This document shows positions 8,247 through 34,905 of a stretch of 34,905 bases of DNA, piece after piece. The position numbers and the translations under genes are program-made. This DNA is from Clostridiales bacterium Firm_10 (GTDB taxonomy: Bacteria > Bacillota > Clostridia > Christensenellales > Aristaeellaceae). Location of the stretch: assembly GCA_001603025.1 (NCBI GenBank), contig LVAP01000054.1, positions 1 to 34,905 on the forward strand, written 5' to 3'. Within the stretch, counting starts at the first letter, position 1, and each line of letters starts with the position of its first letter. Below the pieces are notes generated by a model. That model worked only from the letters and a program-made list of their open reading frames with translations, ran no database searches and had not been told where the DNA came from.

Positions 8247-11200
8247 TCATTGGGACTCTTCCGCAGGAGTCTCCTCTTCATCCGGCACCCAGTCGGCCGT
8301 CAGCGCGTCCACTATGCTGCTGTTGATCGTCTGGCCCGAATCGTTCTGCACGCGGATGGCAATGCTGCCGCCCTCGTTCTGGCCCATCAGGCGCGTCGTC
8401 GTCCGGATGGTGTACTCGCCGTCCGGCAGGCCCAGGTTTTTCAGGTGAATCACGTAGCCGCTCCGCGCGATGCCAGGCTCGATGTCCGGCATGAGGTTCC
8501 TGATCTCGGCAGGCAGGCTGGAAACATCTCTGTCAAGGTAGCTCACGCCCTGTTCCTCGTCCAGAATGTCTTCCAGCGGCACCTCTGCGAGCCGCTTCTT
8601 GACCTCGTCGCCGGCGTATTCAATGATGACGTGGCTGATCTGGTAGTTCCTGCTCTCGTCGTCGCCATAGCGCCAGCCGGTCAGCAGGATATCATTGCCA
8701 TTGTACGTCTTCATCGGCCTGTCGAAGCCGACGACATAGTTGAGGCCTTCGTCATCGATCAGCGCGTAGCTGTCTGCCAGAACGACGCTCTCGTCCTCAG
8801 TCTCCACGCGCCGCACGGTGAAGGTCGCCGTATCGCCGATCGGGAGGTAAACACCTTCCGCAATGTCGAACGTCGTCAGGCCCACGGTGTATTCGCCTTC
8901 GAAATTCGTCAGCGGAACGTCCACGATAAAGGCATAACCATCCGTCACGTCCGCGGACACGGGCCAGCTTGCCTGATACCCGGCCAGCTCGTTCGCGTTC
9001 AGGGGTGTCCTGCTCATCGCGGAGGTCTCATACACCGGCACTTCGTTCTGGCGGATCGACAGGCTGACGCCTTCGATCTCGCGGCCATGGCAGGCGTACC
9101 ATCCGCTGACGGTCAGCGTCTGGGTCGAGTCGTACTCGCCGCCCACGTGCACCTCGCCGATCTGCCAGTCAGGCGCGCGCTCGACCGTCAGCGATTTCTG
9201 GATTCCGTTTTCAGCCTTATCCCATGCAGTAATGACAATGGTGTCTCCCTCGGCCAGCGCCAGCTCGTCGGCGGTGGTGAAGTAACCGTTTTCTCCCCTG
9301 GATATGGAACACCATTCGCCGTTGTGGGACACCGTTATGTCACTCGCGGTGGTCGTGCCGGAAATTACGGTGGTTTTCGCGTTAATAGTCTCCGTATCAA
9401 GAATTACCGCGGGCTTTGTGCAGTCCCAAAGGTATGTGTCGGTTTTGGCCACGCGCGTTCCGCTCTGCGCGCCAACGCCATCGGCATAGAATACGGTGTA
9501 GTTGATTTCCATGCCGTCGTCGCTGAGGGCATACTGTTCCGCCGTAAAGGGCACGCTGAAGGCGCCGGTGTCGTCAGCCTCAAAGCCGAACACATTGTCC
9601 AACGCGTCGATGGCTGTCAGGCTGACGTTCGGTTCCGCCGTGCCAACCAGTCGGATCTCTCTGCTGCGCATGGCGCCATGTTCGGTGGTATCATCAGATT
9701 CCAGCCGCGCCTCGATCATTGCGCGCGTGCTTTCACTCACCGTTACGGACAGGCTGGCCTTGTTGCTCGCACCGTCGACCGCGCTGACATCATAGACCAT
9801 TCCGCACATCAGGTCTTCCACGCTCAGGGCCAGCGAGAAGCCGCCGTCCCCATCAGCGTATCCATCGTGGATGGTCTTGCCGTCGTGCTTGATCGATACG
9901 TAGGCGTAGGGATCGGTGTGGACGCTGATGCCGTCGCTGTCTTCCGTCAGATTGTCCGTGGAAAGGCTGATCCATGTATCCCAGGTCAGTTCCTTTTCCG
10001 CATATACGCTCGCGCTCCGGCCGTCCGCATAGCGGACGACCAGCGTGCTGGTGATGCCGCCGGACGGCAGAGAATAGTCGGCATCGTCCAGCGTGACGCT
10101 GTATGCGCCGTTTGTGTCAGACCGGAATGTCGTGCTGACGACGCCGTTCCACATGACTTCAAGCGGCGCGTCAGGCTCCGCCCTGCCGGTGATGGTCATC
10201 GTATTCTTGCTCAGTATGCCGTGCTTCACGCCGGCCACGCTTGCTGTGATCGCGGCGCGCTTGGTCTCTTCCACCTGCACGGTGGCTTCCGCCTCATTGC
10301 CTGCCGGATCCTTCGCGCGCACGACGTAGGTCTCGCCCGCTGTGAACCCGGCGCCGTCGGGCGCCCACTCGCCCCTGCCGGAATCATCCAGCGTAAGAGT
10401 CCATTCGCCGGATCCATTGCTGATGGTAATCTGCGTGCCCGGCTCGCACGCGATCGTGAGCGATTGGCTGTCTTCGCTGATCTCGCCGAGCTCCAGCGTT
10501 ATATAGGGATCCCAGACGAAAGGCTCCGATCGGCCCGTCTTGTTCACGCCGCCGCCGTCCGCGTAGCACACCTCGACCTGCGTCGCAAGGCCCTCCTTGT
10601 CCACGTACCAGTGAGGCGCGTAGAGGAGCACCGAATAGGTGCCGTCCTCCGCGACGGGCACGCCGTCCGTCCACATGTCGTTCAGCTTGAACTGAATCGG
10701 CAGGGAAGGCTCGGCCGTGCCGTTGATGATCATTTCCTCGTTTTTCACCACGCCGTCGGCCAGATCCGGCAAGCTCACCGTGATCTGCGCGCGCATGGAC
10801 TCACCCACCTCCACGTCTGCCTGCGCGACGTTTCCGGCGGCGTCCTGCGCGACGATGCTGTATGTGTCGCCCACGAGATAGGTGCCCATGCCGCCGTCCC
10901 AGCTGAAGCGGCCCGTTTCCGCATCCGCCGTCAACTCAGATGCGACTTCACCATCCCTGTTGTAAACGGTAACCTGCGCGCCCGGGTCGGTGACGCCGCT
11001 CACCGCGCTGTCGTCCTCGGTCAGCGGGTCGATCGACAGATCCACCAGGGCATCCCAGAAATAATCCGCCATGGCCACGTTGTCCGCGTCGACGCCGTCC
11101 GCATAGCGCACCTCAATCACGCCCTGCTCGCCAACGCCGGGCAGGCCGCATTCTTCCGCGTCGAGCCGGACGGTGTAACGCCCGTCCGTCCCGGCCGCCG

Positions 11201-14200
11201 CGAGCTTTTCATTTCCGCCGTTCCAGCCGGCGCTCACCGTCTTGCCCGGCTCCGCTTCGCCGGTGACGACCAGCTTCACGCCGTCTGCCGCGATTTCAGT
11301 GAGGGTGATGGCCTGCCGCCGCGCCGTTTCCACGCTGCAGGGTTCGCGCCTGGAGTTGCCTGCGGCATCAGACACCTTAACCCAGTAGGTCTCGCCCAGC
11401 TCAAAGCGGGTGTCCTCCGGCGTCCAGATGTATTCGCCGTTTTCATCCGCGCTGCCCTGCGAGACCAGATCGCTGCTGCGATAGATTTCCACCGCCGCGT
11501 TCGCGTCGGTGTGGATGATCAGGGACTCGCTGTCCTGCGTCAGGGCATCCACGTTCAGCGCCACATACGGATCCCACACAAACGCCGTCGGATTCGCCGC
11601 AATGGAGCGGCCGCGGCCGTCGCCGTAAACGGCGTCCAGGGTGACCTCCACAGCGTCGCCGCCCAGCCCGAGCTCCTCCGCATCGAGCATGAGCGAATAG
11701 GCGCCGTCATTCTGGGCCTGCGCGCTTACCCACATGTCCTGCCAGCCCACCAGCACGACGGCGTTCGGCTCCGCCGTGCCCGACACGGTCAGCGTCGTAC
11801 CGGTTGCCACGCCGTCCACCAGGCCTTCCGCGGCGACCGTCAGAGGCGCGCGCTTCGAGAAGCCCACGATGGCATCGCAGATCGCCTCGTTGCCCATCTC
11901 ATCCACGGCATGCACGGCGTATACTGCGCCGGCTTCAAATTGTCCGAGCCCGCAATTCCAGCTGAAGGCGCCCACGTCGTCCGCCGTGAGCGAAGCGATG
12001 AGAGTATTATCCTGGGAAATCTCGATCTGAGCGCCCGGATCGGTCACGCCGCTCAGCGCTTCGTCGTCTTCATTGAGCTCGTTCACGGCCAGGTCGACGA
12101 AAGCGTCCCAGTCGTATTCGCAGGCGGTTTCCGTGCCCTCGCCGATGCCGTCCGCATAGCGCGCCTCGATGGTGCCATGCTCGCCCGCGCCCGGCAGGCC
12201 GCAGCTTCCGGCATCCAACTGGATGCTGAAATGCCCGTTCTTCTGGGCGCGGCCCGTCGCCGTACCGCGGCCGTTCCAGCTGACGCTCACCGTCTTGTCC
12301 GGCTGGGCGCTGCCCGCAACCGCCAGGGTCATTCCATCCTGAATGAGCGATTCCACACTGATGGGCATGCGCTGCGCCGATTCTACGGTGACCGTCGTGC
12401 GGTCCGAATTGTCGCGCGCGTCCGTTACGATGACCCAGTAGGTTTCGCCCAGGGTAAACGAGGTTCCCTCCGGTGCCCATGTGAATTCGCCGTTTTCATC
12501 CGCGTTGCCTTTGGCAGCCAGCTCAGCGCCCAGGTAGATTTCCACCGCGGCGTCCGCATCGGTGTGCACGGCCAGATATTCGCTGTCTTCCGTCGGCACG
12601 TCGACGGACAGGGCGACGCCGCCGTCCCAGAGGAAGCTGATCTCCTGTGTGGGCTCACCCGGTTCGCCTGCCGTGTAGCGAACCTGCAGCGTGCCTTCCT
12701 CGCCGGCGTTGGAGATGCCGAGCTCGCTGCCCGACAGGGTCATGTCGTAGCGCCCATCCGCGTCAACCGGCGCGGCCGCAATGTCGGCGCCATTCCAGCT
12801 GACCGTCACTTCGGTGTGGGGCTGCGCTGTGCCGGACAGGCGCAGGCTGCCGCCTGCGGCGCGCTCTCCGCCGAGACCGTCGATCTCCGCGGTGATCGGC
12901 ACGGTCAGACTCACGCGCCCAACGACAACGACCACTGTCTCCGTCTCGCCGTTTGCGCGCGCCGTCACTTCATATCGTTCGTCCTGTGCGAAGGCGCCGT
13001 CATGACCGATCACGCAGGCGCCGCCCTCGTCCGCCTGGGACATCCAGCTGCCGTCCGCGCCGCTGACGGAGACCTCCGCCCCGGGGACCGTGAGGATGGA
13101 GAAAGCGGTGCTGGCCGTGTCGATATCGTCCACGCGCAGGAGCATGGACGGCCAGAATGCAAACGAATTCCGGTTGCCCGCGGCGTCGCTCGCCGTTATG
13201 GTATACTTCTGCCAGCCAAAGGTATGCGTGCCCAGGCGCGCCTCTCCATCGTAACCAACGGAAGTGCTCGCCAGTGTGTTGCCGGCCGCATCTGCCAGGT
13301 CGACCTGCGCGCCTGTCTCGGTTCGGACGCGCAGCTCCGCCTCGCTCATCGCCTCGGGCCGCTCCAGCAGTTCGATGGAAGGCGCCGTGAGATCCACAGC
13401 CACTTCGACGATCCGTCCGATGCCCGTGTCTTCCGCGTAAAAGAAGCTGAGGGAATAAGCGCCGTCTTCGCTGAAGGTCAGGCTCACATCAGTCGTGCCG
13501 TTCGCGTCAAATGTCAGCTCCTGCGCCATCTCCTCAACTGCCGCGCCGTTCAGCGTCACGCGCAGGCAGGCCGCGCTGTCCGGCGTACCGTGCAGCGCCA
13601 GCCGCTGCGTCGCGCCGGCATCGCCGTTGACGAGATAGCCGCCGTCTTCGCGGAGGATGCCGTTTGGCATCTCCACCCCCATGGGTCTCAGGATATCCTG
13701 GGGGATTTCATCCTCGATGACCACCGTCAGCGTCTTTTCCTCGGTGTTGCCGGCAGGGTCCACAGCCTGGAGCACAAGCGCCTCGCCCGCCGTCAGCTGG
13801 AACGAATCGTTCACTGCGTCGGCTTCCATGTCCAGCACATAGGCGCCCGTTTCGTCCGCCGTGGCGCGGGCGATGACCTCGCCGCCCTGCAGCAGGCGCA
13901 CCTCGGCGCCGGCGTCGGTCGTGCCGCTCACGGCCTTGCCCTTGCCGATGACGTCGGTCTCACTGGTCAGCACCACGCCGCCGTCGTAATAGAACTCATC
14001 CTCCTGCTCGGCGCCGTCGTCAAGGCGGATGAGGACGTGGTTCAGCGCGTTGTCGCTCAGGGCTTCCTTCTCAATGGTATAGCTCCACGCACCGTCCTCC
14101 TCGGAGAGCACGGTGTCGATTTTTCGGTTGTTCAGGAAGAAGCTCACTTCACGGCGTGGGCCTGTCGTGCCCATGTAGGTGTATTCCTGCGCGCCGTTGC

Positions 14201-15404
14201 CGACGTTGTCGGTCGTCTCAAAGCCGCGTTCAAAGGCAATGAGCGTACCTGCCGCGGGCGGCTCTGTTCCATTGGAGCCGCTATCCGGAACGTCGGTCTC
14301 AATCTGGCCGGTCTGGGCAGGGCCTGGCGTCGGCGTCGGGCCGGAGCGGGAGAGCATCACGCCGAGCACGGCCATGCCCACCGCGCCTGCGGCAGCCAGT
14401 CCGATGACCACAGGCAGAAGTTTGGAACGCTTATGCGGCTTGTCGCCGCCCATCGCCTTCAGGCGAAAGCGCTCCAGATCGATATAAAGCGCCTGCATCG
14501 TGGGATAGCGGTCGTTCGGATTGGGACGCAGGCAGCGCTGCATAATCGCCCACAGCTCGGGATTCATCCCGCGGACAGGCGGGATATCCGCGCCGCTGAG
14601 ACGCTTTTCCCGCGCCTCGCGCGATTCCGTTTCCGTCGGGCGGCTGTTCTGCACGAAGGGCAGCTTGTCGTCGTTGAACAGCTCGTACATCACGACGGCC
14701 AGGGAATACATATCCGAACGGATGTCGCCGCCCTCGCCCGCGTTGATTTCGGGGGCCATGTAGTCCCGGGTGCCGACGATCATGCCCGCGCCGACTTTTT
14801 TGCCGTTTTCGCTTCGAATGGACACGCCGAAGTCACCCAGCTTGAAATAGTCTCGGCTGGGCTCGGCATAGAAGATGTTGTCCGGTTTGACGTCCAGGTG
14901 GGTAATGTCGCAGCGCTCGCAGAAGCTCAGGCCGCTTACCAGCTCGGACCAGATTCTCAGGTTCAGCAGCAGCCCCCGCTTGAAGCCATAGCGGTCGCAG
15001 GTTTTCAGAAAGGTGTCCAGCTGGACCAGCCGCTCCATGCGGATAATGACGTCGAAGCCGTAAGTATCCGTGCGGGGATAGACAGCCGCGTCCTCAAAGC
15101 AGACGATATGGCTGTCGCTCTTGAGGCGCTCCATGATTTGGATCTCGGTCCGGGCGTAGCGCAGTTCCTGGTCGATCCACGCGTTCACCCGGGCGACGGA
15201 GCCGCCCATTTCCTTCAGCACGGCGTTGTACTGCTGGTCGTCCTTGGGGATCGAGATCACCTTCAGCGCCGCGTCCACATCCTCAGTATGCACCAAATAG
15301 ACCGTGCCTGAATTGCCTCGTCCCAGTATCTCCGGGGGATCGTTCAGATACCATTTCCCGAAAAACGGCACATAGCTGCGGATGCGTTCATCGATACTCT
15401 GCAT
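8247..15404 (-). CDS. Giant transmembrane Ser/Thr protein kinase with Ig-like repeat ectodomain
   Basis: This 2385-residue receptor-like kinase is the last gene of the operon. Residues 22-315 form a Hanks-type kinase: glycine loop G-R-G-N-S-G-T-V (28-35), ATP Lys in A-L-K-V-I (48), catalytic loop H-L-D-V-K-P-D-N (169-176), D-F-G at 191-193 and A-P-E at 217-219. The catalytic loop has Leu where most have Arg, so it is a non-RD kinase. A single transmembrane helix covers about 329-351, followed by a Pro/Thr linker. The other 2000 residues are extracellular. They contain six composite units, each pairing a G-T-A-E-P type sheet with an E-D-S type sheet, then a distinct C-terminal region of about 350 residues. 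PASTA domains, usual in Gram-positive PknB/Stk1, are absent. The PP2C gene starts 31 bases upstream. The ectodomain suggests a ligand, partner or wall sensor; the signal is unknown. Confidence 0.9.
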   Translation of the reverse strand: MQSIDERIRSYVPFFGKWYLNDPPEILGRGNSGTVYLVHTEDVDAALKVISIPKDDQQYNAVLKEMGGSVARVNAWIDQELRYARTEIQIMERLKSDSHIVCFEDAAVYPRTDTYGFDVIIRMERLVQLDTFLKTCDRYGFKRGLLLNLRIWSELVSGLSFCERCDITHLDVKPDNIFYAEPSRDYFKLGDFGVSIRSENGKKVGAGMIVGTRDYMAPEINAGEGGDIRSDMYSLAVVMYELFNDDKLPFVQNSRPTETESREAREKRLSGADIPPVRGMNPELWAIMQRCLRPNPNDRYPTMQALYIDLERFRLKAMGGDKPHKRSKLLPVVIGLAAAGAVGMAVLGVMLSRSGPTPTPGPAQTGQIETDVPDSGSNGTEPPAAGTLIAFERGFETTDNVGNGAQEYTYMGTTGPRREVSFFLNNRKIDTVLSEEDGAWSYTIEKEALSDNALNHVLIRLDDGAEQEDEFYYDGGVVLTSETDVIGKGKAVSGTTDAGAEVRLLQGGEVIARATADETGAYVLDMEADAVNDSFQLTAGEALVLQAVDPAGNTEEKTLTVVIEDEIPQDILRPMGVEMPNGILREDGGYLVNGDAGATQRLALHGTPDSAACLRVTLNGAAVEEMAQELTFDANGTTDVSLTFSEDGAYSLSFFYAEDTGIGRIVEVAVDLTAPSIELLERPEAMSEAELRVRTETGAQVDLADAAGNTLASTSVGYDGEARLGTHTFGWQKYTITASDAAGNRNSFAFWPSMLLRVDDIDTASTAFSILTVPGAEVSVSGADGSWMSQADEGGACVIGHDGAFAQDERYEVTARANGETETVVVVVGRVSLTVPITAEIDGLGGERAAGGSLRLSGTAQPHTEVTVSWNGADIAAAPVDADGRYDMTLSGSELGISNAGEEGTLQVRYTAGEPGEPTQEISFLWDGGVALSVDVPTEDSEYLAVHTDADAAVEIYLGAELAAKGNADENGEFTWAPEGTSFTLGETYWVIVTDARDNSDRTTVTVESAQRMPISVESLIQDGMTLAVAGSAQPDKTVSVSWNGRGTATGRAQKNGHFSIQLDAGSCGLPGAGEHGTIEARYADGIGEGTETACEYDWDAFVDLAVNELNEDDEALSGVTDPGAQIEISQDNTLIASLTADDVGAFSWNCGLGQFEAGAVYAVHAVDEMGNEAICDAIVGFSKRAPLTVAAEGLVDGVATGTTLTVSGTAEPNAVVLVGWQDMWVSAQAQNDGAYSLMLDAEELGLGGDAVEVTLDAVYGDGRGRSIAANPTAFVWDPYVALNVDALTQDSESLIIHTDANAAVEIYRSSDLVSQGSADENGEYIWTPEDTRFELGETYWVKVSDAAGNSRREPCSVETARRQAITLTEIAADGVKLVVTGEAEPGKTVSAGWNGGNEKLAAAGTDGRYTVRLDAEECGLPGVGEQGVIEVRYADGVDADNVAMADYFWDALVDLSIDPLTEDDSAVSGVTDPGAQVTVYNRDGEVASELTADAETGRFSWDGGMGTYLVGDTYSIVAQDAAGNVAQADVEVGESMRAQITVSLPDLADGVVKNEEMIINGTAEPSLPIQFKLNDMWTDGVPVAEDGTYSVLLYAPHWYVDKEGLATQVEVCYADGGGVNKTGRSEPFVWDPYITLELGEISEDSQSLTIACEPGTQITISNGSGEWTLTLDDSGRGEWAPDGAGFTAGETYVVRAKDPAGNEAEATVQVEETKRAAITASVAGVKHGILSKNTMTITGRAEPDAPLEVMWNGVVSTTFRSDTNGAYSVTLDDADYSLPSGGITSTLVVRYADGRSASVYAEKELTWDTWISLSTDNLTEDSDGISVHTDPYAYVSIKHDGKTIHDGYADGDGGFSLALSVEDLMCGMVYDVSAVDGASNKASLSVTVSESTRAMIEARLESDDTTEHGAMRSREIRLVGTAEPNVSLTAIDALDNVFGFEADDTGAFSVPFTAEQYALSDDGMEINYTVFYADGVGAQSGTRVAKTDTYLWDCTKPAVILDTETINAKTTVISGTTTASDITVSHNGEWCSISRGENGYFTTADELALAEGDTIVITAWDKAENGIQKSLTVERAPDWQIGEVHVGGEYDSTQTLTVSGWYACHGREIEGVSLSIRQNEVPVYETSAMSRTPLNANELAGYQASWPVSADVTDGYAFIVDVPLTNFEGEYTVGLTTFDIAEGVYLPIGDTATFTVRRVETEDESVVLADSYALIDDEGLNYVVGFDRPMKTYNGNDILLTGWRYGDDESRNYQISHVIIEYAGDEVKKRLAEVPLEDILDEEQGVSYLDRDVSSLPAEIRNLMPDIEPGIARSGYVIHLKNLGLPDGEYTIRTTTRLMGQNEGGSIAIRVQNDSGQTINSSIVDALTADWVPDEEETPAEESQ
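9224..14250 (-). repeat. Tandem Ig-like repeat array in the kinase ectodomain
   Basis: This coding repeat covers roughly residues 385-2060 of the kinase. Two alternating sheet modules can be followed by eye. The first carries G-x-A-E/Q-P and often W-N-G, then D-G-x-Y-S, G-L-P and R-Y-A-D-G. The second carries x-E-D-S/D and T-D-P/A-x-A, then W, G-E-T-Y and D-A-A-G-N. The E-D-S element occurs six times and the G-x-A-E/Q-P element seven times. Period is about 165-190 residues. The same modules recur in the vWA-FHA and 1634-residue proteins. Boundaries are approximate. Confidence 0.7.
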
Positions 15405-15435: not shown

Positions 15436-16386
15436 TTATCTCATCAGGAATTTGACCAATTCGAACACAGACCAGCCCAATCCGCCGGCCAGCAGCGCGG
15501 CGAGCACCGTCAGCGCTATCTGCCATCCCTTCATGCGGCGGATGCGCATCTTGTCCTTGTCCTTTTCACCAGCTTTGAGCACGTCCAGCACGATCACCGT
15601 GATGTTATCTGAGGAGATGCCCGCGGACTCCGCATTTTCAAGCGACTGGCGCACCAGCGTGGCCGCCGCATTGGCGGCCGACGGGGCGTTGCGCATGATT
15701 TCCTCGATCACCGTGTCGTGAACCTGATCGCTCAGGCCGTCGCTGCAAAGCACGAAGCGATCGCCGGGCATCAGGTCCTTGCGGATGCTGATGGTGGGCT
15801 TCAGCTTTTCACCTTTTTCCAGCGGCATGCCCAGGTGCTTGGTGATGACGTTCTTGAGCGGATGCTGCCACGCCTCTTCCTGCGTGATCTCCTTGCGGTC
15901 AACCATCATCTGCACTTCGGAGTCGTCCTTGGTCACGCGCTTCAGCCGGCCGTCGCGCATCAGATACACGCGGCTGTCGCCGACGTGAACGGTGCGGAAA
16001 TACCAGTCCTTCATCGCGACCAGCGCGATGGTGCTGCCGCAGTCGCCGGAGGCCAGGCCACGGGACAGGGAAATCCTGTCGACCGCCTCCGACACCTTAC
16101 CGATCAGCTCCTCCAGGTAAGAGGAGCTGTCCGGCTGGGCGCATGTCTGCTGGTATTCCTTGAGCATCTGCACGGATTTGAGCGAGGCTTCCTCGCCCAG
16201 CTCCGCGCCGCCCATGCCGTCGCACACGGCGTACATCTGCGCGTCGTCCATGCAGACCGAGTGCATCTGGCCGCCCTTATTCATCTGTTCACGTTCCATG
16301 AACAGCCCGTTGAAGAAGAAGTTATCTTCGTTATTCGGCCGGTGACCGATGTGGCTGTACACGGCGGCGCTAATCTTCAGGCTCAT
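15436..16386 (-). CDS. Membrane-tethered PP2C Ser/Thr phosphatase
   Basis: This 316-residue protein is a canonical bacterial PP2C (PrpC/Stp type) with a C-terminal membrane anchor. All metal-binding motifs are intact: R-P-N-N-E-D-N-F (about 16-23), C-D-G-M-G-G (near 60), H-V-G-D-S-R (near 135), C-S-D-G-L-S-D (near 215) and S-S-D-N-I-T-V (near 258). After the catalytic domain a basic stretch leads to one hydrophobic helix at about residues 289-308, with only a few residues beyond it; the enzyme therefore faces the cytoplasm. A GAAGGAGAA site lies eight bases before the ATG. It sits 32 bases after the Ig-repeat gene and 31 bases before the kinase gene, so it is the natural antagonist of that kinase and would act on its membrane-bound and FHA-bound substrates. 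Confidence 0.93.
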   Translation of the reverse strand: MSLKISAAVYSHIGHRPNNEDNFFFNGLFMEREQMNKGGQMHSVCMDDAQMYAVCDGMGGAELGEEASLKSVQMLKEYQQTCAQPDSSSYLEELIGKVSEAVDRISLSRGLASGDCGSTIALVAMKDWYFRTVHVGDSRVYLMRDGRLKRVTKDDSEVQMMVDRKEITQEEAWQHPLKNVITKHLGMPLEKGEKLKPTISIRKDLMPGDRFVLCSDGLSDQVHDTVIEEIMRNAPSAANAAATLVRQSLENAESAGISSDNITVIVLDVLKAGEKDKDKMRIRRMKGWQIALTVLAALLAGGLGWSVFELVKFLMR

Positions 16387-21323: not shown

Positions 21324-21365
21324 GTGAACACGCTCCAATCAGTTATCGAAAAAACGTCTTGGTGA

Positions 21366-25154: not shown

Positions 25155-25206
25155 CGTCAGCATCTCCTCTTCACCCGTCGTTTTTTCTTTGCCGAATCTA
25201 TATCAT

Positions 25207-26920: not shown

Positions 26921-26925
26921 CCGTC

Positions 26926-27517: not shown

Positions 27518-30500
27518 ATGTACGCTGCCTGGCTATTCTACGGAGACCACTTCAAGGATATCTTTTTCCCGGATCTGGACAGCTGGACCAGCCAGATCGT
27601 CATCACTCAGGAGGAAAGCGGCTGGAATTCGGACTCCATCTTCCAGGTGCGCGAACTGGACGGCCGCGTATTCCTCGCGCCTTCCGCGCATTTTTTCTGG
27701 AAGCAGGATAAATCCACCATCGAGCGCGTGATCTCGCTGGAGGAGCACAACATCTTCTCCTCCGCAGACGGCGAACTGACCATCATCCTCAAGAAGATGG
27801 ACGCCGAGCGTCTCTGTTTCAACAAATACCTGGTGGCCTCGAAGACGCTGACCGTCGGCCGCAACCCGCAAAACAACGTGTACGACGCCGACCAGCGCCT
27901 GAGCACGGCCCACGGCTACATCGCCTTCGGCGACGGCAAGCAGGCCGAGTACACTGACAACAACTCCGCCAACGGCACCTACCTGAACGGCCGCCGCATC
28001 ATGGGCAGCACCGTCGTCATTCAGTACGGCGACGTGCTCACCTTCCCTTCCGGCCTCAAGATCGTGTTCCTGGGCAACATGGTCGCCATCAACCGGCTGG
28101 AGACGCTGCAGCACATTCAGATGCAGCGGGCCGTGCCGCGCGCCAACATTCCCATGCCCCACACGCCGGAGCACTTCCCAAGCCTGTACGTTCAGTACCA
28201 CCGCGCGCCGCGCATGCTGCAGAAGCCCGTGTCCGATTCCATTGAAATCGAGCCGCCGCTCGCCAAGCAGAACAACGCCAACCCGCCGCTCTGGCAGCAG
28301 GTCGGCCCCTCCATGACCATGGTGCTGCCCATGCTGATGGGCACGCTCATCGCCGGCAGCCGCGGCTCCGGCATGGTTTCCTCCGGTCTGATCATGGTGG
28401 GCACCTCGTCGATGCTGGCCGTCATGTGGGGCCTCATCAACCGCCGCTACCGCCAGCAGCAGGCCGAGGCCACTGAAAGCCAGCGCATCGGGCTGTATCA
28501 GAAGTACATCGCCGAGATGGAGCAGACGCTGCGCGACATGAACACGCAGGAATACAACCGCCTCGTCACCACCTATCCGAACGTCGGCGAGTGCGTCGCG
28601 CTGCCCACGGACGGCACCTACCGCCTGTGGAACCGCATGCCCACCCATCCCGATTTCCTCAACATCCGCCTCGGCCTGGGCCGCGTGCCGCTGCCCAGCG
28701 CCATCGAGACGCAGAAGCAGAAGCTGTCCATCATCAACGACCCGCTGCGCGATGAGCCCGAACGCCTCAAGCAGACCTACGCCACCATCGACGACGCGCC
28801 GGTGCTCGCCGCTCTTCGCGGCGAATCCGTGGTGGGCATCCTGGGCCGCGAGGAGGCGACCCAGTTCGCCCAGGGCCTGCTGATGCAGATCGCCGCGCTG
28901 CACAGCTATCACGATGTGCGCATCGTGGTGTTCACCGAGGAAACCAACACCTCCCAGTGGGCCTGGGCGCGCTGGCTCCCCCACGTGTTCGCCAGCGAGG
29001 ATCGCCAGATGCGCATGGTCGTCTCAAACCCCTCCGCCGTGCACGACGTCATGAACCATCTGAACGACGTGATGAACATGCGCCGCACCACGCAGGAAGA
29101 CGGCGCGCTGAACGCCGCCGAATCCGACGAGGATCGCATCGCCGCCTTGCCGCTGCCCCACTACATCGTGTTCTGTACCGACAACCGCATGCTTGAAAAT
29201 GAGCCCACCATGCGCCAGCTGCTCACCAACCAGCTGGGCATGACGCTGATCATGCTCGCGCCCAGCATGGAGCTCCTGCCCAAGGAGTGCCACCTCATCC
29301 TGAACGTGGCCGCCAAGCCCGGGCAGCTGCACACCAGCGACGGCGAAACAACGCAGATCGATTTTGAATATCCCAACCGCAACCTGCTGTTGTCGTTCGC
29401 CCGGCAGCTGGCGCCGCTGCGCGTCAAGGACGCCGCCGAAAACGCCGCCATCCCGACGCTGGTCTCCTTCCTGGATATCTACGGCGTGCGCCGCACCGAC
29501 GACCTGGACGTGTGGCGCATGTGGACGGAGAATCACACCTACAACGGCCTGCGATCGGTCATCGGCTATGCCGCCGGCTCGCAGCCCTTCGTGCTGGACA
29601 TCTCCGATAAATACCACGGCCCCCACGGCCTGATCGCCGGCACCACAGGTTCCGGTAAATCGGTCATGCTGCAGACATACATCCTCTCGCTGGCGCTGAA
29701 CTACAGCCCCGCGGAAATCCAGTTCATCCTGATCGACTACAAGGGCGGCGGCATGGCGGACGCCTTCCGCGGCCTTCCCCACGTGGCCGGCATCATCGAC
29801 AACCTGCAGGGCGAGCTGATCATCAGCCGCGCGCTGGCCTCGCTGAACGGCGAAATCCACCGCCGCGAGCACATCTTCAAGGAACACGGCGTGGACAAGA
29901 TCGACGAATACAACCGCGTATTCGGCAGCGATCCCTCCGAGCCCACCCTGCCGCACCTCATCATCATCGTGGACGAATTCGCCGAGCTGAAGAGCGAGCA
30001 GCCCGAATTCATGAGCGAACTGGTCTCCGCCTCCCGCGTCGGCCGTTCCCTGGGCGTCCACCTGATCCTCGCCACTCAGAAACCTTCCAACTCGGTTTCC
30101 GATGAAATCTGGGCCAACTCGCGCTTCCATCTCTGCCTGCGCGTGCAGACCCGTTCGGACTCCATGGAAATGCTGAAGCGTCCGGACGCCGCCTTCATCA
30201 AGGGCATGGGACGCTGCTTCATCCAGATCGGCAACGACGAGCTGTTCGAGCAGGTCCAGACCAGCTACTCCGGCCTCACCTACAACCCGAACGAGCCTCG
30301 CGCCGAGGAGATGCCGCACCTGCTGGGCAACAGCGGCCAAGCCGTGCGCACCCCCAAGCCCAAGAAGGCAAAGAGCGCCAACCCCAAGGAAAAAGAGACC
30401 ACCCAGATGGACGCCGTGCTGGCGCGCATCTCGGAAATCGCCGGGCAGCACAGCCTGGACCATCAGCGCCAGCTGTGGCTTCCGCCCATGCCGAACCAGC

Positions 30501-32437
30501 TGTACTTCAGCCAGATGCGGCTGTATTCCGACACGGTGGTGCGCGGCACGCGGTACGCCAACTCGCCTGAGCAGATCAGCTTCCTCATGGGCATGGCGGA
30601 CGACGTGGCGCAGCAGCGCTACCTGCCCTATGTCGTCAACCTGACGCAGGTGCGCAACCTTATGATCGTGGGCCTGGCCGGCACCGGCAAAACCACCGCC
30701 ATCCAGAGCATCGTCACCTCGCTCGTCGGCCAGTATGACCCCGAGCACGTGAACATCTACATCATGAGCCTCACCAGCAAGACGCTGAACAGCCTGGCGG
30801 CCTTCCCGCATGTGGGCGACATCGTCTTCGAGAGCGACATCATCGAAATCAAGCGCCTCATCAACATGCTGTTCGAGGAGGAGGAGCGCCGCAGCGAGAT
30901 GTTTGCCGAGCTCTCCACCGACAGTTTCATCGAATACAACCGCGCCTGCCGCAGCAAGGGCCGGCCCACCGTGCCCGCCATCGTCGTGTTCATCGACCGC
31001 TATGAGCAGCTCAAGACCATCTTTGCCAACGACGATTTCTACACCGCCCGCATCCAGGCGCTGCTGCGCGAGGGCAGCGGCCGCGGCATCCACTTCATCG
31101 TGACCGCGCTGGGCAAGAACGAGATCCAGGCCAAGCTGCATCCGTTCTTCAGCGGCATCGCGCTGCAGCTGCGCGAGCGCGCCGACTATTCCGATGTCAT
31201 CGGCACGCGCCTGCCCTTCGACATGGCCCCCATCGCCAACGTCCCCGGCCGCGGCATGGGCATCATCATGGAAGGCGACAAGGCCGTACCCTACGAGATC
31301 CAGTTTGCCCTGGGCGGCTATGACCCCGGAGAGCCTTCCGGCGAGGATTTCGCCGACCTGAACGCCTCTGTGGCTTACAGCATGACCTCCCGCCTGGATG
31401 ACATCGCCCCGCTGCCCGACGGCGAACGCAACGAGCGCATCGCCGCCTTCGCCAACCAGCTGAACGCCCAGTGGCAGGGCCGGCGCCCCGCCCCCATTCC
31501 GCGCATTCCCGAGAACCCGGATTATCCGCAGTTCACGCAGGCGCAGGGCTTCGCCGACATGCAGATCACGCCGTACCAGCTGCCAGTCGGCTACGATATG
31601 ACCAAGGGCTCCCTGGCCTGCATGGACCTGGAGAAGAACTTCTCCATGCTGGTCACCGGCCCGAAGAAGAGCGGCCGCACAAACTTCCTCAAGCTGCTGG
31701 CGCGCCTGTTCTCCGAACGGGGCGCGGATGTGTTCGTCTACGGCGACCCGAGCTGGAAGAAGCTCACCGATTCCCTGGGCGCCCACCTGTACACCACCGA
31801 GGACGAGCTGTCGAACTTCATCAACATGTTCGTGAGCGAGTATCCCGCCAAGCGCAAGGCGCTGCATGACGCCGCTCTGGCCCAGGGCCGCGCGCAGGCC
31901 CGCAAGCAGGCCCTCGAGTTCAAGCCCTGCGCGGTGCTGCTGGACGACGTGGAGCGCATCTGCCGGGACTTCACCGCCCCGCGCTTCAGCAAGAGCGCCG
32001 ACCAGATCATCGCCGAATACGAGCAGGCCCTCAAGGCGGCCCGCGAGGCCGGAACCCCCGAGCCGCAGGAGCCCTCCGAGGAGATCCGCAAAATCGCCGC
32101 GCATCCGGTACGCCACAACATTCCCACGAAGAAGTTCATCGCGGACCTGCTGGCGCAGATGTCCACCATCGCCGAGCTGTACAACATCTTCATCTTTATG
32201 TCCGTCTCCTCGGCCAACCGCCTGTTCGAGCGCGAAGAGCCCATCAAGAGCCTCATCGCGCAGGGCCGCGGCGTCGCGCTGGGCGGCCGCCTGAGCGACT
32301 TCGACCCGCTGGGCATTTCCGCCAGCCTCCAGCCGCAGACCCGTTCCCAGGCGCTCCCTGCCGGCGCCGGCTACCTGGTCACCAACGCGGGCATCGTTTC
32401 CATCCGCGTGCCGCTGGCCGACACCGAAGAAGAATGA
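27518..32437 (+). CDS. essC: EssC-like type VII secretion ATPase (FHA + three FtsK/SpoIIIE domains)
   Basis: This 1639-residue motor protein drives T7SSb secretion of WXG100/LXG-type substrates across the membrane. Residues 1-180 hold a degenerate and then a recognisable FHA domain (V-G-R-N-P-Q-N near 111, S-A-N-G-T-Y-L-N-G near 150). Two transmembrane helices lie at about 265-307. Three ATPase modules follow. D1 has an intact Walker A, G-T-T-G-S-G-K-S near 710, and Walker B, I-I-I-V-D-E-F near 813. D2 has G-L-A-G-T-G-K-T near 1052, with F-I-D-R-Y in place of D-E near 1157. D3 has a degenerate G-P-K-K-S-G-R-T near 1380 and L-L-D-D-V near 1471. Length and order match EssC of Staphylococcus and YukBA of Bacillus. 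The ATG follows AAAGGGGAG. YukD is encoded four genes downstream; EssA, EssB, EsaA and WXG100 genes are not in the window. Confidence 0.93.
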   Translation: MYAAWLFYGDHFKDIFFPDLDSWTSQIVITQEESGWNSDSIFQVRELDGRVFLAPSAHFFWKQDKSTIERVISLEEHNIFSSADGELTIILKKMDAERLCFNKYLVASKTLTVGRNPQNNVYDADQRLSTAHGYIAFGDGKQAEYTDNNSANGTYLNGRRIMGSTVVIQYGDVLTFPSGLKIVFLGNMVAINRLETLQHIQMQRAVPRANIPMPHTPEHFPSLYVQYHRAPRMLQKPVSDSIEIEPPLAKQNNANPPLWQQVGPSMTMVLPMLMGTLIAGSRGSGMVSSGLIMVGTSSMLAVMWGLINRRYRQQQAEATESQRIGLYQKYIAEMEQTLRDMNTQEYNRLVTTYPNVGECVALPTDGTYRLWNRMPTHPDFLNIRLGLGRVPLPSAIETQKQKLSIINDPLRDEPERLKQTYATIDDAPVLAALRGESVVGILGREEATQFAQGLLMQIAALHSYHDVRIVVFTEETNTSQWAWARWLPHVFASEDRQMRMVVSNPSAVHDVMNHLNDVMNMRRTTQEDGALNAAESDEDRIAALPLPHYIVFCTDNRMLENEPTMRQLLTNQLGMTLIMLAPSMELLPKECHLILNVAAKPGQLHTSDGETTQIDFEYPNRNLLLSFARQLAPLRVKDAAENAAIPTLVSFLDIYGVRRTDDLDVWRMWTENHTYNGLRSVIGYAAGSQPFVLDISDKYHGPHGLIAGTTGSGKSVMLQTYILSLALNYSPAEIQFILIDYKGGGMADAFRGLPHVAGIIDNLQGELIISRALASLNGEIHRREHIFKEHGVDKIDEYNRVFGSDPSEPTLPHLIIIVDEFAELKSEQPEFMSELVSASRVGRSLGVHLILATQKPSNSVSDEIWANSRFHLCLRVQTRSDSMEMLKRPDAAFIKGMGRCFIQIGNDELFEQVQTSYSGLTYNPNEPRAEEMPHLLGNSGQAVRTPKPKKAKSANPKEKETTQMDAVLARISEIAGQHSLDHQRQLWLPPMPNQLYFSQMRLYSDTVVRGTRYANSPEQISFLMGMADDVAQQRYLPYVVNLTQVRNLMIVGLAGTGKTTAIQSIVTSLVGQYDPEHVNIYIMSLTSKTLNSLAAFPHVGDIVFESDIIEIKRLINMLFEEEERRSEMFAELSTDSFIEYNRACRSKGRPTVPAIVVFIDRYEQLKTIFANDDFYTARIQALLREGSGRGIHFIVTALGKNEIQAKLHPFFSGIALQLRERADYSDVIGTRLPFDMAPIANVPGRGMGIIMEGDKAVPYEIQFALGGYDPGEPSGEDFADLNASVAYSMTSRLDDIAPLPDGERNERIAAFANQLNAQWQGRRPAPIPRIPENPDYPQFTQAQGFADMQITPYQLPVGYDMTKGSLACMDLEKNFSMLVTGPKKSGRTNFLKLLARLFSERGADVFVYGDPSWKKLTDSLGAHLYTTEDELSNFINMFVSEYPAKRKALHDAALAQGRAQARKQALEFKPCAVLLDDVERICRDFTAPRFSKSADQIIAEYEQALKAAREAGTPEPQEPSEEIRKIAAHPVRHNIPTKKFIADLLAQMSTIAELYNIFIFMSVSSANRLFEREEPIKSLIAQGRGVALGGRLSDFDPLGISASLQPQTRSQALPAGAGYLVTNAGIVSIRVPLADTEEE

Positions 32438-32463
32438 CGACCGCCTGACGGGAGGTTCATCCG

Positions 32464-33210
32464 ATGCTGCCTGTGTTGATCTACGACGTGGACGCGTCCC
32501 TGCGCGCAATGCTTCTGCGTGTGCTGAAAGCATTGCCCGGGAGTTCTGCGCTTAAAATCATCTCAGCCGGCGCCTCTGCCGAGGATACCGAGCGCTTTTC
32601 CGGCGCGCAGGACGGCATCATCCTCACCATCATCGGCCTCTCGCTGCATCCCGACAACCGCCGGCGCGGGCTCGACCTGGGGCGCGCCATCATGCGGCGC
32701 AACCACGACAACTACACTGTGTACTGCATCCATGAACTGACGGACCTGGAAACCGTGCTGGCCGGCTGCGAACGTCCCGCCGGCATCCTGCTGGCGCCGT
32801 TCTCGCCCGAGCGCATCGCTTCCTGCCTGCGCCGGATCGTGGACGAATACGTCTCCCTCAACGAGGGGAACACCGACGCCAGCTGCCTGACCCTCACCTC
32901 CGGCGCCTCGACCTACCGCATCCCCTTCGACCAGATCACCTACATTGAGGCCCTGGATAAAAAGCTGAACATCTGCACCCATCGGCAGACGGTCACCGTG
33001 CGCGGCACGCTCGCAACCCTGGCCGATCAGCTGCCGGAGCAGTTCGTCCGCTGCCACCGGTCCTACGTCGTCAATGTGCGCTCCATACGTCAGTCCGATT
33101 TCTCCGAAATGACCCTCACGCTGTTCGACGGCGACACGCTGCCCATCTCGCGCTCCAGCCGGAATGAGCTGCGCCAGCGCCTCGAAAGTGTTTGGGAGGT
33201 GAACGCATGA
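32464..33210 (+). CDS. LytTR-type transcription regulator with degenerate receiver domain
   Basis: This 248-residue cytoplasmic regulator has a receiver-like N-terminal half (about 1-125) and a C-terminal LytTR DNA-binding domain (about 145-245). LytTR hallmarks are I-P-F-D-Q-I-T-Y-I-E-A near 155 and F-V-R-C-H-R-S-Y-V-V-N near 200. The receiver keeps one acidic pair (D8, D10), but the strand that normally ends in the phospho-acceptor Asp reads I-I-L-T-I, with Thr at about 55. Classical histidine-kinase phosphorylation therefore seems impossible, and no histidine kinase gene is near. It lies 26 bases after essC with GGGAGG before its ATG, and overlaps the next gene by four bases. It probably controls this secretion operon or its effectors. 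Thr at the phospho-site makes control by the Ser/Thr kinase conceivable, but that is speculation. Confidence 0.85.
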   Translation: MLPVLIYDVDASLRAMLLRVLKALPGSSALKIISAGASAEDTERFSGAQDGIILTIIGLSLHPDNRRRGLDLGRAIMRRNHDNYTVYCIHELTDLETVLAGCERPAGILLAPFSPERIASCLRRIVDEYVSLNEGNTDASCLTLTSGASTYRIPFDQITYIEALDKKLNICTHRQTVTVRGTLATLADQLPEQFVRCHRSYVVNVRSIRQSDFSEMTLTLFDGDTLPISRSSRNELRQRLESVWEVNA

Positions 33211-33734
33211 ACGCTGAAACAGTAAGCTATCGCTATACCCGCGCTGAATTGAGCGCCCTGCTGCTGCTGCTGCACCTCAACGCCCTGCCCGGCGCACCGC
33301 TGCCGCCAATCACAGAGGCCGACTACCGCAAGGCCATGGATTCACTGGCCGATTCCGGCCTCGTCACCCCGGCGGCGGACCGCGCCATCATCGATTCGCT
33401 CACCACGCTGATCGTCTCCAGCGCCGCCCGCTGCCGCTATTACGCCCGTTTCGACGCGCCGGACAGGACCATCGTGATCTGGCGCTGCCCGATCATGGGC
33501 GTGCTGGGCACCTTCCCGGCCCAGGGGGGATGCACGCTGACCCCGCTGGGCTCCTTCGAAGAGGCGCTTTCCGTGCTCGGGGACGCGCTGGCGCGCTGCG
33601 CCTTCCCCGTGTCCGCTTCCAGCCCCGCCCTGCTGGGCGAGGAAACCCTTTCCGCTGCGGATGAGCCGCAGCTGAACAGCGTCCGCGCCTCCCTCTGGCA
33701 CAGCGCCCAGGCCGTCGAGGCCAAAGACAAATAA
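33207..33734 (+). CDS. Conserved-looking unknown protein of the type VII operon (possibly EspG-like)
   Basis: I do not recognise the family with certainty. The product is 175 residues, soluble, with no signal peptide or membrane helix. The N-terminal 70 residues look like a winged-helix-type unit (Y-T-R-A-E-L-S-A-L-L, then A-M-D-S-L-A-D-S-G-L-V). A strand-rich part (R-T-I-V-I-W-R-C, L-T-P-L-G-S-F-E-E-A) and an acidic tail follow. The pattern of a start with L-x-x-x-E-L-x-x-L-L followed by A-L-x-x-R/S-G-L is reminiscent of actinobacterial EspG, the cytosolic chaperone of ESX substrates. That resemblance is by eye only. ATG 33207 overlaps the stop of the LytTR gene (ATGA) and follows GGGAGGTG. 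Position between regulator and YukD suggests a cytosolic secretion or regulatory accessory. Confidence 0.6.
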   Translation: MNAETVSYRYTRAELSALLLLLHLNALPGAPLPPITEADYRKAMDSLADSGLVTPAADRAIIDSLTTLIVSSAARCRYYARFDAPDRTIVIWRCPIMGVLGTFPAQGGCTLTPLGSFEEALSVLGDALARCAFPVSASSPALLGEETLSAADEPQLNSVRASLWHSAQAVEAKDK

Positions 33735-33772
33735 ACCGAAGCACAGCGCTTCGCTCAATATGAGGTGATAAT

Positions 33773-34024
33773 ATGGAAACGATCATCGTCGAGCTCTACG
33801 TGCCCGCCACTTCCTCCACCTTCGATTTCCAGCTTCCCGCCACGGGCCGCGTGTGCGACATCGTCAACGAGATCATCCGCATTCTGGAGGCCACGCAGCA
33901 GAACCTGCGTTTCGACAAGGACCTCCCCGTGCTGTGCGACCTGGAGCACGGGTGTTCTCTGAACCCCGGCGCCTTCATCGCGCAAACCGGGATCCACGAC
34001 GGTTCCCGGCTGATGCTGGTATAA
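33773..34024 (+). CDS. esaB: YukD/EsaB ubiquitin-like type VII secretion accessory protein
   Basis: This 83-residue protein has the beta-grasp, ubiquitin-like pattern of YukD/EsaB: a leading strand (M-E-T-I-I-V-E-L-Y-V), a second strand around F-D-F-Q-L-P, a helix (V-C-D-I-V-N-E-I-I-R-I-L) and the C-terminal strand G-S-R-L-M-L-V. Length matches the family (about 80 residues). There is no C-terminal Gly-Gly, as in other YukD proteins, so it is not a conjugating ubiquitin. In Bacillus and Staphylococcus, YukD/EsaB is a small cytosolic component needed for T7SSb activity. A GAGGTGATA site precedes the ATG. It is the last gene of the operon, with 38 bases after the previous stop and a strong terminator about 110 bases downstream. 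Confidence 0.88.
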   Translation: METIIVELYVPATSSTFDFQLPATGRVCDIVNEIIRILEATQQNLRFDKDLPVLCDLEHGCSLNPGAFIAQTGIHDGSRLMLV

Positions 34025-34122
34025 TCGAATCGCGGCGACGCCTCCCCGGCGTTTGGAACAGCCTGATCCTCCCTCTTCCGACGGAGGCGAACAGCTGCCG
34101 GGCGCGGGGACGCCCATGCCCG

Positions 34123-34172: not shown

Positions 34173-34206
34173 CAAATGATCTTCCAAAGGCCCCGTCTTG
34201 TCCGGT

Positions 34207-34512
34207 TTATTCTTCCCCGGGCTTCCACTCCTGGCGGAGCTTCACCATCATCTCGTCGGCGCGCTCCTTGAAGGCGAGCGCCTCGTCGTCCTGATAGCCC
34301 AGGAAGTACAGCCGGTCGATCTGATCGGTGTTGAACAGGAAGTTCTCATCCGCGCTCATGTAGCCTTCAGGGAAGACGCAGCCCACGTAATCATACAGGT
34401 TCGTGCCCTTATCGGTGACGCCCTCCTGGCAAACACCCATAATCATCACGCGCTTGGTGCTGTCCTTCAGCAGAACCACTGTGCCGATCGGAAGAAGTCC
34501 TTCAATTTTCAT
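34207..34512 (-). CDS. DUF4176-family type VII secretion accessory protein
   Basis: This 101-residue cytosolic protein matches DUF4176: L-L-P-I-G-T-V-V-L-L-K near the start, T-K-R-V-M-I-M-G, Y-D-Y-V-G-C-V-F-P-E-G in the middle and F-N-x-D-Q-I-D-R-L-Y-F-L-G-Y towards the end. This small family is found mainly in T7SSb and LXG effector loci of Bacillota; its biochemical role is unknown, with a chaperone or assembly role often assumed. GAGGAGG lies eight bases before the ATG. It follows the DUF3592-like gene by 24 bases on the same strand, so the pair is co-transcribed, opposite to the essC operon. Its presence supports the reading of this window as part of a type VII locus that continues to the right, where effectors and WXG100 genes may lie. 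Confidence 0.88.
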   Translation of the reverse strand: MKIEGLLPIGTVVLLKDSTKRVMIMGVCQEGVTDKGTNLYDYVGCVFPEGYMSADENFLFNTDQIDRLYFLGYQDDEALAFKERADEMMVKLRQEWKPGEE

Positions 34513-34536
34513 CCGTATTGCCTCCTCAATTACGAC

Positions 34537-34905
34537 TTATCGACGCATCAAAACGACTGCCACGATTATTATAACAGCTCCGATGCCCAAAAACAACCAC
34601 CCGAGTACCGCGGAAGAACGATTTCGGTTGGCGAGAATGCCGTCCACATCATTCTGGTCGAGTATGATGTCCCAGCCCTTCATGCCCATCGCGTTCGTCC
34701 TGCGATAGACGATATCCACCTCGTCGCCGACTTTCGCCGTCAGGCTGGAGGTCCCCACCGCGCCTGTGCTCTGGCGGACGGTTTCGCCATCCGCCTGAAA
34801 CTCAACCACGGGCTTCACGGTGTTGGGGCCGTCGGCCTGCATCACGGCGACCAGCGTGGCTCGCGTGCGGGTGAAGCCGCCGGCGCTGCGTCCCCGCGCG
34901 GCGAG
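34537..34905 (-). CDS. DUF3592-like membrane protein (partial, runs off right edge)
   Basis: The frame has no stop from 34537 to the window end, so the start codon is outside; 122 residues are visible. The part reads R-A-T-L-V-A-V-M-Q, then V-V-E-F-Q-A-D-G-E, V-G-D-E-V-D-I-V-Y, and ends in one hydrophobic helix with a short basic end (V-V-L-M-R-R). This is the beta-strand plus membrane-helix pattern of DUF3592 proteins, which usually have another helix at the N-terminus. The inner GTG at 34845 could be mistaken for a start but has no ribosome binding site and cuts into the domain. It is just upstream of the DUF4176 gene in the same transcription unit. DUF3592 proteins are frequent in type VII and toxin loci, without known function. 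Confidence 0.65.
   Translation of the reverse strand, partial: LAARGRSAGGFTRTRATLVAVMQADGPNTVKPVVEFQADGETVRQSTGAVGTSSLTAKVGDEVDIVYRRTNAMGMKGWDIILDQNDVDGILANRNRSSAVLGWLFLGIGAVIIIVAVVLMRR

Follow-up and report, generated by a model that had tools for sequence, protein, structure and literature searches.

How type VII secretion is switched on in Bacillota is an open question, and a locus in the draft genome of Clostridiales bacterium Firm_10 bears on it. The stretch of DNA analyzed here (the window) is the entire contig C107 of that genome (LVAP01000054.1, 34,905 bases). The contig end falls within the locus, and the host assembly (G000) comprises 2.72 Mb in 179 contigs and is 88% complete. The locus encodes an EssC-type motor ATPase of a type VII secretion system (T7SS), together with a Ser/Thr kinase, PP2C phosphatases, proteins with forkhead-associated (FHA) domains, and large surface proteins with immunoglobulin-like (Ig) or von Willebrand factor A (vWA) domains. 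We predict from the sequence, with a probability of about 0.55, that the active-looking kinase, the PP2C, and docking of phosphothreonine (pThr) on FHA domains couple the surface Ig/vWA proteins to EssC and switch secretion on.

Domains were called by profile searches (Pfam and TIGR models) with curated cut-offs, and transmembrane (TM) helices by a simple hydropathy scan. An EssC-alignment scan of species genomes yielded at least 80 loci for comparison (with flanks of up to 10 kb, often shortened by a contig end). The window and loci L043, L044, L045, and L046 make up a group of five genomes, here called clade X, whose other genomes are G151 to G154; L043/L138 is the locus of G151 (the metagenome-assembled genome, MAG, RGIG4322 from roe deer duodenum), L142 is a contig of G152, and L045 belongs to G153. 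The genes that carry the argument are as follows.

8247..15404, minus strand: Ser/Thr kinase, TM helix, and Big_6 Ig ectodomain, TsxD-like, 2385 amino acids (aa) (Pkinase 110.9 bits; Big_6 237.9 bits, 13 stretches)
15436..16386, minus strand: PP2C with C-terminal TM helix, TsxF-like (PF13672 52.6 bits; TM at 299; 61% to L138)
16419..21338, minus strand: giant Ig protein, TsxI-like, 1639 aa, with signal-like N-terminal helix and C-terminal TM helix (Big_6 43 bits; TM at 23 and 1601)
16422..16502, minus strand: cytoplasmic tail of this Ig protein, containing a single Thr motif, TIKK (shuffle test on tails)
21366..25163, minus strand: signal-like helix, vWA domain, four Ig domains, TM helix, Thr-motif linker, and FHA domain, 1265 aa (VWA 59.7, FHA 62.4, Big_6 103.1 bits; TM at 19 and 1008)
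21702..22028, minus strand: part of the cytoplasmic linker of the vWA-FHA protein, with six T[VQ]R motifs (motif count against shuffles)
25910..26920, plus strand: protein with peptidoglycan (PG)-binding-like region, TM helix, and FHA domain, 5'-truncated relative to G151 (FHA 53 bits)
26917..27492, plus strand: small FHA protein with N-terminal TM helix (FHA 67.7 bits; 49% to L043)
27518..32437, plus strand: EssC/TsxC motor ATPase with N-terminal FHA domain (TIGR03928 971.9 bits, cut-off 778.4; FHA 42.8 bits; 67% to L043)
32464..33210, plus strand: LytTR regulator, TsiN-like (PF04397 86.9 bits; directly after essC in 5/5 clade-X loci)
33207..33734, plus strand: EspG-like chaperone, TsxG-like, short form (predicted fold)
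33773..34024, plus strand: YukD/EsaB ubiquitin-like protein, TsxB (PF08817 26.9 bits, just below the cut-off of 27; 80% to the L043 YukD)

The minus-strand block holds, in order, the kinase-TM-Ig, PP2C-TM, Ig, vWA-Ig-TM-FHA, and RCC1 genes. The plus-strand block runs from the PG-binding-like-TM-FHA gene through the small TM-FHA gene, EssC, LytTR, and the EspG-like gene to YukD, followed by a minus-strand DUF4176 gene and a cut membrane gene. A sequence-only reading, which began at position 8247, had named a T7SS core (EssC-like ATPase, YukD/EsaB, and DUF4176), which the profile scores bear out. Profile searches likewise recovered its TM Ser/Thr kinase, membrane PP2C, four FHA proteins including EssC, RCC1 protein, and LytTR regulator. 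The single giant Ig-repeat protein it described is present, with the correction that Ig repeats occur in three proteins (the kinase ectodomain, the 1639-aa protein, and the vWA-FHA protein). The EspG-like gene had been overlooked, and a second, soluble PP2C lies just beyond the range of that reading. The gene at 33207-33734, between LytTR and YukD, is predicted to encode an EspG-like chaperone, as its modeled fold matches solved EspG.

Kinase, threonine motifs, and FHA domains

The kinase domain occupies residues 25-306, followed by a single TM helix at about residue 338 and an Ig ectodomain of about 2000 aa. In an alignment, its catalytic elements are all intact (the ATP-site Lys, HLDVKPDN, DFG, and APE), and it is 53% identical to its L138 relative over 410 aa. 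The alignment covered a chosen subset of 25 kinases, namely 22 of the 55 kinase open reading frames (ORFs) of the EssC loci among the matches listed and three from later contigs. All 25 retain the HRD Asp, the Asn, and the DFG Asp, and 24/25 retain the ATP-site Lys, the exception being a cut ORF. The DFG motif reads DFN or DYN in 11 of the 25 (L051-L054, L059, L094, L104, L107, L109, L117), with the HRD Asp, Asn, and DFG Asp retained, and several loci hold two kinases. A strict motif expression (exact catalytic loop plus DFG) passed 27 of 53 kinase ORFs and failed the DFN, DYN, and DWG forms; it was set aside in favor of the alignment. The membrane-bound PP2C scored 159.2 bits against the Stp1 model, below the cut-off of 230.

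Outside the window, the kinase of G152 (L142 3963-5039) has 358 aa, stops just past its TM helix without an ectodomain, and lies on a second contig between PP2C and YukD. This indicates that the ectodomain is evolutionarily dispensable.

FHA domains are specific for pThr and select mainly at position +3 (PMC4157861), and self-binding FHA tails prefer hydrophobic residues at +2 and +3 (PMC6733907). The cytoplasmic linker of the window vWA-FHA protein has 153 residues and contains six T[VIQ]R motifs against 0.23 expected (0/2000 shuffles), a motif chosen after it had been seen. When 14 vWA-FHA linkers were pooled, T..[ILVMF] occurred 35 times against 14.8 expected (0/2000 shuffles). Among the controls in the same linkers, S..[ILVMF] gave 8 against 15.3, a hydrophobic residue at T+2 17 against 15.0, and at T+4 10 against 14.7; T+1 gave 30 against 15.2. 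A split by clade, covering 13 of the 14 linkers after a length filter removed one of 19 residues, showed T+3 enrichment both in clade X (n=4, 17 against 9.0, 2/1000 shuffles) and outside it (n=9, 17 against 5.8, 0/1000 shuffles). Because the motif class had been noticed before testing, the nine linkers from outside clade X give the fairer test. Other TM-FHA proteins gave 20 against 11.4 in clade X (n=11) and 23 against 15.6 in the rest (n=33, 27/1000 shuffles), and the extracellular parts showed no enrichment of Thr+3 (49 against 57.5 expected).

The giant Ig protein carries a related motif in its tail. Pairs of Ig-tail and own-genome linker motifs are TIKK and T[VQ]R in the window, TIRQ and TIRQ in G151, TVRL and TVRM in G152, and TLPV and TLPP in G153. 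The pattern T[VIQ][RK], widened from R to R/K to take in TIKK, is found in 3/3 tails (window, L138, and L142; 0/5000 shuffles) and does not match the fourth clade-X tail (L045/G153, TLPV). In seven Lachnospiraceae-type loci the giant-protein tails are short, basic, and without Thr, which makes the tail motif a clade-X feature. The Ig protein itself is 23% identical over 721 aa to the L138 protein at the equivalent place. Its G153 counterpart (762 aa) has no Pfam match and is counted as an Ig protein by place and C-terminal TM helix only.

On the reading side, all FHA domains of the window have the GR and S..H motifs, and all but that of the 336-aa protein (YG) have NG. FHA readers and candidate Thr sites are distributed across EssC and four membrane proteins.

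In the proposed mechanism, Ig/vWA ectodomains would sense a cell surface or contact, and their engagement would activate the kinase, which would phosphorylate the Thr motifs of the vWA-FHA linker and the Ig-protein tail. The FHA domains of EssC, the two small membrane FHA proteins, and the vWA protein would recognize these sites, and the resulting contacts would build the channel around EssC. Such docking may replace the contact between the EssB pseudokinase and the EssC FHA domain in T7SSb, and PP2C would reset the phosphorylated state. LytTR would control expression, and the EspG-like chaperone may load substrates partnered with WXG100 proteins.

Relation to known secretion systems

The sequence-only reading held that joining such a cassette to a type VII motor would define a distinct subtype. 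That the union is without precedent is not supported, since Garrett, Higginson and Palmer (2024, PMC11217815) describe T7SSc to T7SSj as holding a kinase, a PPM phosphatase, FHA proteins, and giant Ig proteins of TsdI type in various sets. The same authors suggest phospho-regulation of these systems by analogy to the type VI secretion system (T6SS). Beyond that paper, no description of such a gene combination was found in the open-licence literature, as judged by titles and abstract openings. Judged by gene content, the locus unites a T7SSi core (components C, N, G, and B) with a T7SSe/j cassette (D, F, and I). Two further components extend the published sets, a vWA-TM-FHA protein at the surface and a kinase bearing a giant ectodomain of Ig repeats.

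The likeness to T7SSi lies in an EssC with FHA domain, a LytR-like regulator (TsiN), an EspG-like chaperone, YukD, and WXG100 genes among the substrates. T7SSi as published (in Vallitalea only) is compared here by its description, which gives a kinase-like TshM-type protein without ectodomain and poor pThr motifs. The available T7SSi text names no PP2C, separate FHA, vWA-FHA, or Ig protein, all of which are present in the window. The T7SSi-type TsxM shape (C-terminal TM helix, no ectodomain) is not that of the window kinase with its Ig ectodomain, and is that of the 358-aa G152 kinase.

T7SSe and T7SSj, as far as described in the available text, resemble the window in a membrane kinase (D), a PPM phosphatase (F), and a giant Ig protein (I) that carries a signal peptide and a C-terminal TM helix, all beside an FHA-bearing ATPase. 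They also have a separate FHA protein (J) and YukD (B), as does the window; T7SSd shares D, I, and the FHA domain on the ATPase and lacks F, J, and B. Unlike T7SSe/j, the window has LytTR, an EspG-like gene, and the vWA-Ig-TM-FHA protein. Its separate FHA proteins are membrane-bound without DUF6382 (not found by Pfam scan in the three, one of them truncated), whereas TsxJ of T7SSe/j is a DUF6382-FHA protein. The kinase ectodomain consists of Ig repeats, in contrast to helical or TPR ectodomains in T7SSe/j/d, and the window EssC falls outside the clade of T7SSe-like Bacillus loci.

The window resembles T7SSb in an EssC over the TIGR03928 cut-off with N-terminal FHA domain, in YukD, and, in the genome, in WXG100 and a lipase with a C-terminal WXG100 domain. 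It differs in that EssB and EsaA were not found in the window's genome and that an active-looking kinase stands where T7SSb has a pseudokinase; the YukC pseudokinase domain copurifies with the YukB FHA region (PMC9600267). The T6SS proteins PpkA/PppA/Fha share the logic of kinase, phosphatase, and FHA domain at a secretion motor, although the machine is unrelated and the likeness is one of analogy only; in Agrobacterium, Fha binds phosphothreonine of TssL and activates secretion (PMC3953482). Tail switches such as OdhI, GarA, and DgcB also have a flexible Thr-motif segment with hydrophobic +2/+3 before an FHA domain (PMC6733907). Unlike these, the segment in the window follows a TM helix, and several such proteins hold more than one motif.

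The sequence-only reading had also reported EssA, EssB, and EsaA as not visible. This holds for EssB/YukC (PF10140) and EsaA (TIGR03929), which matched in 0/5 clade-X genomes including the host, with Streptococcus controls at 347.2 and 216.3 bits, respectively. EssA (PF10661) was likewise matched in 0/5, with a model that also missed its Streptococcus control. Of 245 genomes drawn evenly from the class, 15 have an EssC over the cut-off and one has an EssB, which lies beside essC. EssC stands without EssB in 14 of these 15 genomes, so the refuting case set out by the sequence-only reading, essC normally accompanied by canonical EssA/EssB/EsaA and no such cassette, is not borne out. EssB was present in three of the genomes behind 32 of the EssC loci among the matches listed.

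The EssC tree (82 rows, quick maximum likelihood with SH-aLRT support only, repeated with 14 more rows) placed the window with L043, L044, L045, and L046 in one clade with support 100 in both trees. This clade nests in a 45-row clade (support 99, or 98 with 14 more rows), of which 27 rows are labelled Lachnospiraceae. T7SSb rows and the T7SSe-like Bacillus/Neobacillus rows (L064, L066, L067, and L070, assigned by gene content and genus, not accession) fall elsewhere; L145 (G168), intended to represent T7SSb, yielded no EssC row and is absent from the tree. L060 comes from a MAG labelled Deltaproteobacteria, and its EssC groups with Oscillospiraceae and Lachnospiraceae rows, possibly through a binning error. 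Of 151 genomes from the order of the host, only that of the host itself has an EssC over the cut-off, a hint of horizontal gain.

The closest relative among the matches listed, L043/L138 (EssC 67%), has the same gene order and in addition a second Ig-TM-FHA gene and a 1343-aa gene. With extra fetched contigs included, the T7SS clusters of clade X contain PP2C in 5/5, kinase in 4/5, vWA-TM-FHA in 4/5, LytTR after essC in 5/5, and YukD in 5/5 genomes; an EspG-like gene was recognized by sequence in 3/5. In the scan loci alone, with the window whole, the counts are kinase 2/5, PP2C 3/5, and vWA-TM-FHA 2/5. Among the matches listed, 34 Lachnospiraceae-type loci include kinase in 25, PP2C in 10, TM-FHA in 25, vWA-TM-FHA in 10, and LytTR in 27. 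The 25 loci of the T7SSe-like clade include kinase in 14, PP2C in 11, TM-FHA in 1, vWA-TM-FHA in 0, and LytTR in 2, and the 11 of the T7SSb/c-like clade kinase in 3, PP2C in 2, and vWA-TM-FHA in 0, while six loci of a third group have none of these cassette genes. The vWA-TM-FHA protein also occurs in G230, outside the 45-row clade, and is therefore not exclusive to it. The proposal that cassette and essC form a conserved neighborhood is upheld for the nearest relatives, with G151 syntenic, and only in part further out: of the 14 other EssC genomes in the class sample, six have kinase plus PP2C close to essC and one has a vWA-FHA gene there.

In L053, L054, L057, L059, L085, L117, and L122, a giant protein with C-terminal TM helix (984-1900 aa in the sequence read, most of them truncated where the locus ends) is encoded directly before the kinase gene. 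Of four such proteins scanned, three have Ig-like domains over the Pfam cut-off and one is just below. Ig-like giant proteins beside a kinase outside clade X suggest that the pairing of Ig protein and kinase may predate the clade.

Flanking genes, junction, and candidate substrates

The remaining features of the window are given below.

7344..8114, plus strand: soluble PP2C, divergent from the kinase gene (PF13672 43.1 bits; no TM helix)
25207..25971, minus strand: RCC1-repeat protein, 5'-truncated relative to G151 (RCC1_2 75.6 bits)
34207..34512, minus strand: DUF4176 protein (PF13780 95.2 bits; 73% to L043)
34537..34905, minus strand: incomplete membrane protein running off the contig end (DUF3592 16.2 bits, below its cut-off; 35% identical over 84 aa to the gene at the equivalent place in L043)

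The soluble PP2C is possibly a second phosphatase of the system; the G151 contig ends shortly beyond its kinase gene. Upstream of it, the left flank holds unrelated sugar-transport and pantothenate-kinase genes. A URO-D-like protein (4275-5378, plus strand) beside a sugar ABC transporter apparently has no relation to the T7SS.

The RCC1 gene (minus strand) and the PG-binding-like FHA gene (plus strand) abut head to head at about 25957-25975, and both are without the N-terminal TM-bearing parts of their G151 counterparts; the RCC1 protein is without the first ~117 aa, including the TM helix. G000 contains no match to the 1343-aa gene that occupies this position in G151, and the junction at about 25.96 kb reflects either a deletion or an assembly artefact. 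The wall-binding call for the FHA protein, whose head the sequence-only reading proposed as a contact sensor along with the vWA and Ig heads, is weak (PG_binding_2/PF08823 18.4 bits, cut-off 21.1). RCC1 was considered as a core part and dropped, as it occurs only in the window and G151 (2 of 81 EssC loci among the matches listed).

No WXG100 genes were found in the window. Five such genes over the PF06013 cut-off lie on contig C97 of the host genome, within a seven-gene array whose genes match the G151 array one to one (7/7) in the same order at 36-61% identity. The G151 array lies just past DUF4176, a TM gene, and a 608-aa candidate effector beside its T7SS locus, and DUF4176 there marks the end of the WXG100/effector gene row. 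The C97 array leads into another DUF4176 gene (31% to the G151 DUF4176). These results indicate that the host genome holds a matching WXG100 set on a contig other than C107. Right after the C97 array and this second DUF4176 gene, a TIR and trypsin-like protein (L010 958-2993) may have an effector, immunity, or defence role. Contig C38 encodes a protein (L011 2062-3792) with a lipase-like (Mbeg1-like) domain and a C-terminal WXG100-like domain (21.6 bits, under cut-off), and a 36% relative of it lies in the G153 T7SS locus beside DUF4176. The domain order of TslA is the reverse (PMC11217815).

Competing readings and what the locus may mean

Several observations weigh against a pThr switch at EssC. 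The Thr motif class was spotted in the same sequences before its test. The window linker alone is not significant at T+3 (5 against 2.96, 14% of shuffles), nor are the single linkers L097, L104, and L109, and individual linkers often show no +3 signal; L111 has no Thr, and L139x has no +3 motif and repeats EETIQPY instead. Enrichment was also seen for Ser+3 in extracellular parts (45 against 33.3, 19/1000) and for T+2 in linkers outside clade X (15 against 5.9). The window EssC FHA domain has GR, S..H, and NG, but its Ser lacks an adjacent Arg/Lys (STAH); by regular expression, GR is missing from the EssC FHA domains of L045 and L046, and S..H from one L045 FHA domain. Two window genes are truncated, G153 and G154 have no EspG-like gene between LytTR and YukD, and the partial cassette in the class sample counts on the same side. 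The two kinase matches of G154 lie on other contigs, C19 and C56, and the 18.4 kb of C56 examined hold no T7SS gene.

Three other readings compete with the coupling of surface proteins to EssC by phosphorylation. The locus could be a plain T7SSi (or T7SSe/j) of Garrett et al. (PMC11217815) with surface accessories of no mechanistic weight, given that the gene order C-LytTR-EspG-YukD corresponds to components C, N, G, and B of T7SSi, and D, F, and I to those of T7SSe/j. We consider this doubtful, because neither the T7SSe-like Bacillus loci nor T7SSb fall in the EssC clade of the window, DUF6382 is absent from the Pfam results, and the T7SSi text, as available, describes pThr motifs as poor and mentions neither a PPM nor a separate FHA or Ig protein. 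The cassette might instead be mainly structural, with the kinase as an EssB-like scaffold, the Ig/vWA proteins as an EsaA-like envelope conduit, and catalysis and phosphorylation secondary. The kinase does share the topology of EssB (cytoplasmic kinase fold, one TM helix, extracellular part), and the giant Ig protein has the size of TsdI, for which a conduit role has been proposed (PMC11217815). Retention of the catalytic residues across all aligned kinases, PP2C at the T7SS clusters of every clade-X genome, the Thr-specific linker signal, and the G152 kinase without ectodomain make a mainly structural role unlikely.

That the kinase and phosphatase sense envelope stress and act on transcription (e.g., via LytTR) rather than on the EssC motor appears quite unlikely. 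The constant place of LytTR directly after essC in clade X agrees with such a route, as does the report that the IreK kinase activates T7SSb transcription in Enterococcus (cited in PMC11217815). The FHA domains and Thr motifs are, however, located on EssC and membrane proteins, and LytTR has no FHA domain by Pfam and one T[VIQ]R match.

Phosphorylation-dependent coupling to EssC is the reading we prefer, and a further-reaching version is put forward tentatively, as something we would not yet bet on. In it, the locus would represent a distinct subtype running on a phosphothreonine code. The kinase would be a live counterpart of EssB that writes lineage-specific Thr motifs in the vWA linker and in the tail of an envelope-spanning Ig protein. 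Four FHA domains, including that of EssC, would read them as a multivalent zipper, so that channel assembly is confined to sites of surface-receptor engagement. On this view, T7SSb would have lost the switch and kept it as a fixed scaffold.

The FHA-pseudokinase contact of T7SSb has the appearance of a phospho-signalling relic. Two published subtype gene sets, the T7SSi core and the T7SSe/j cassette, appear to meet in a single locus, and one cluster supplies candidate phospho-sites, readers, writer, and eraser. Since the Thr motifs differ by lineage, they predict which FHA domain should bind which peptide, and the phosphorylation idea of Garrett et al. thereby becomes testable with peptides and purified FHA domains.

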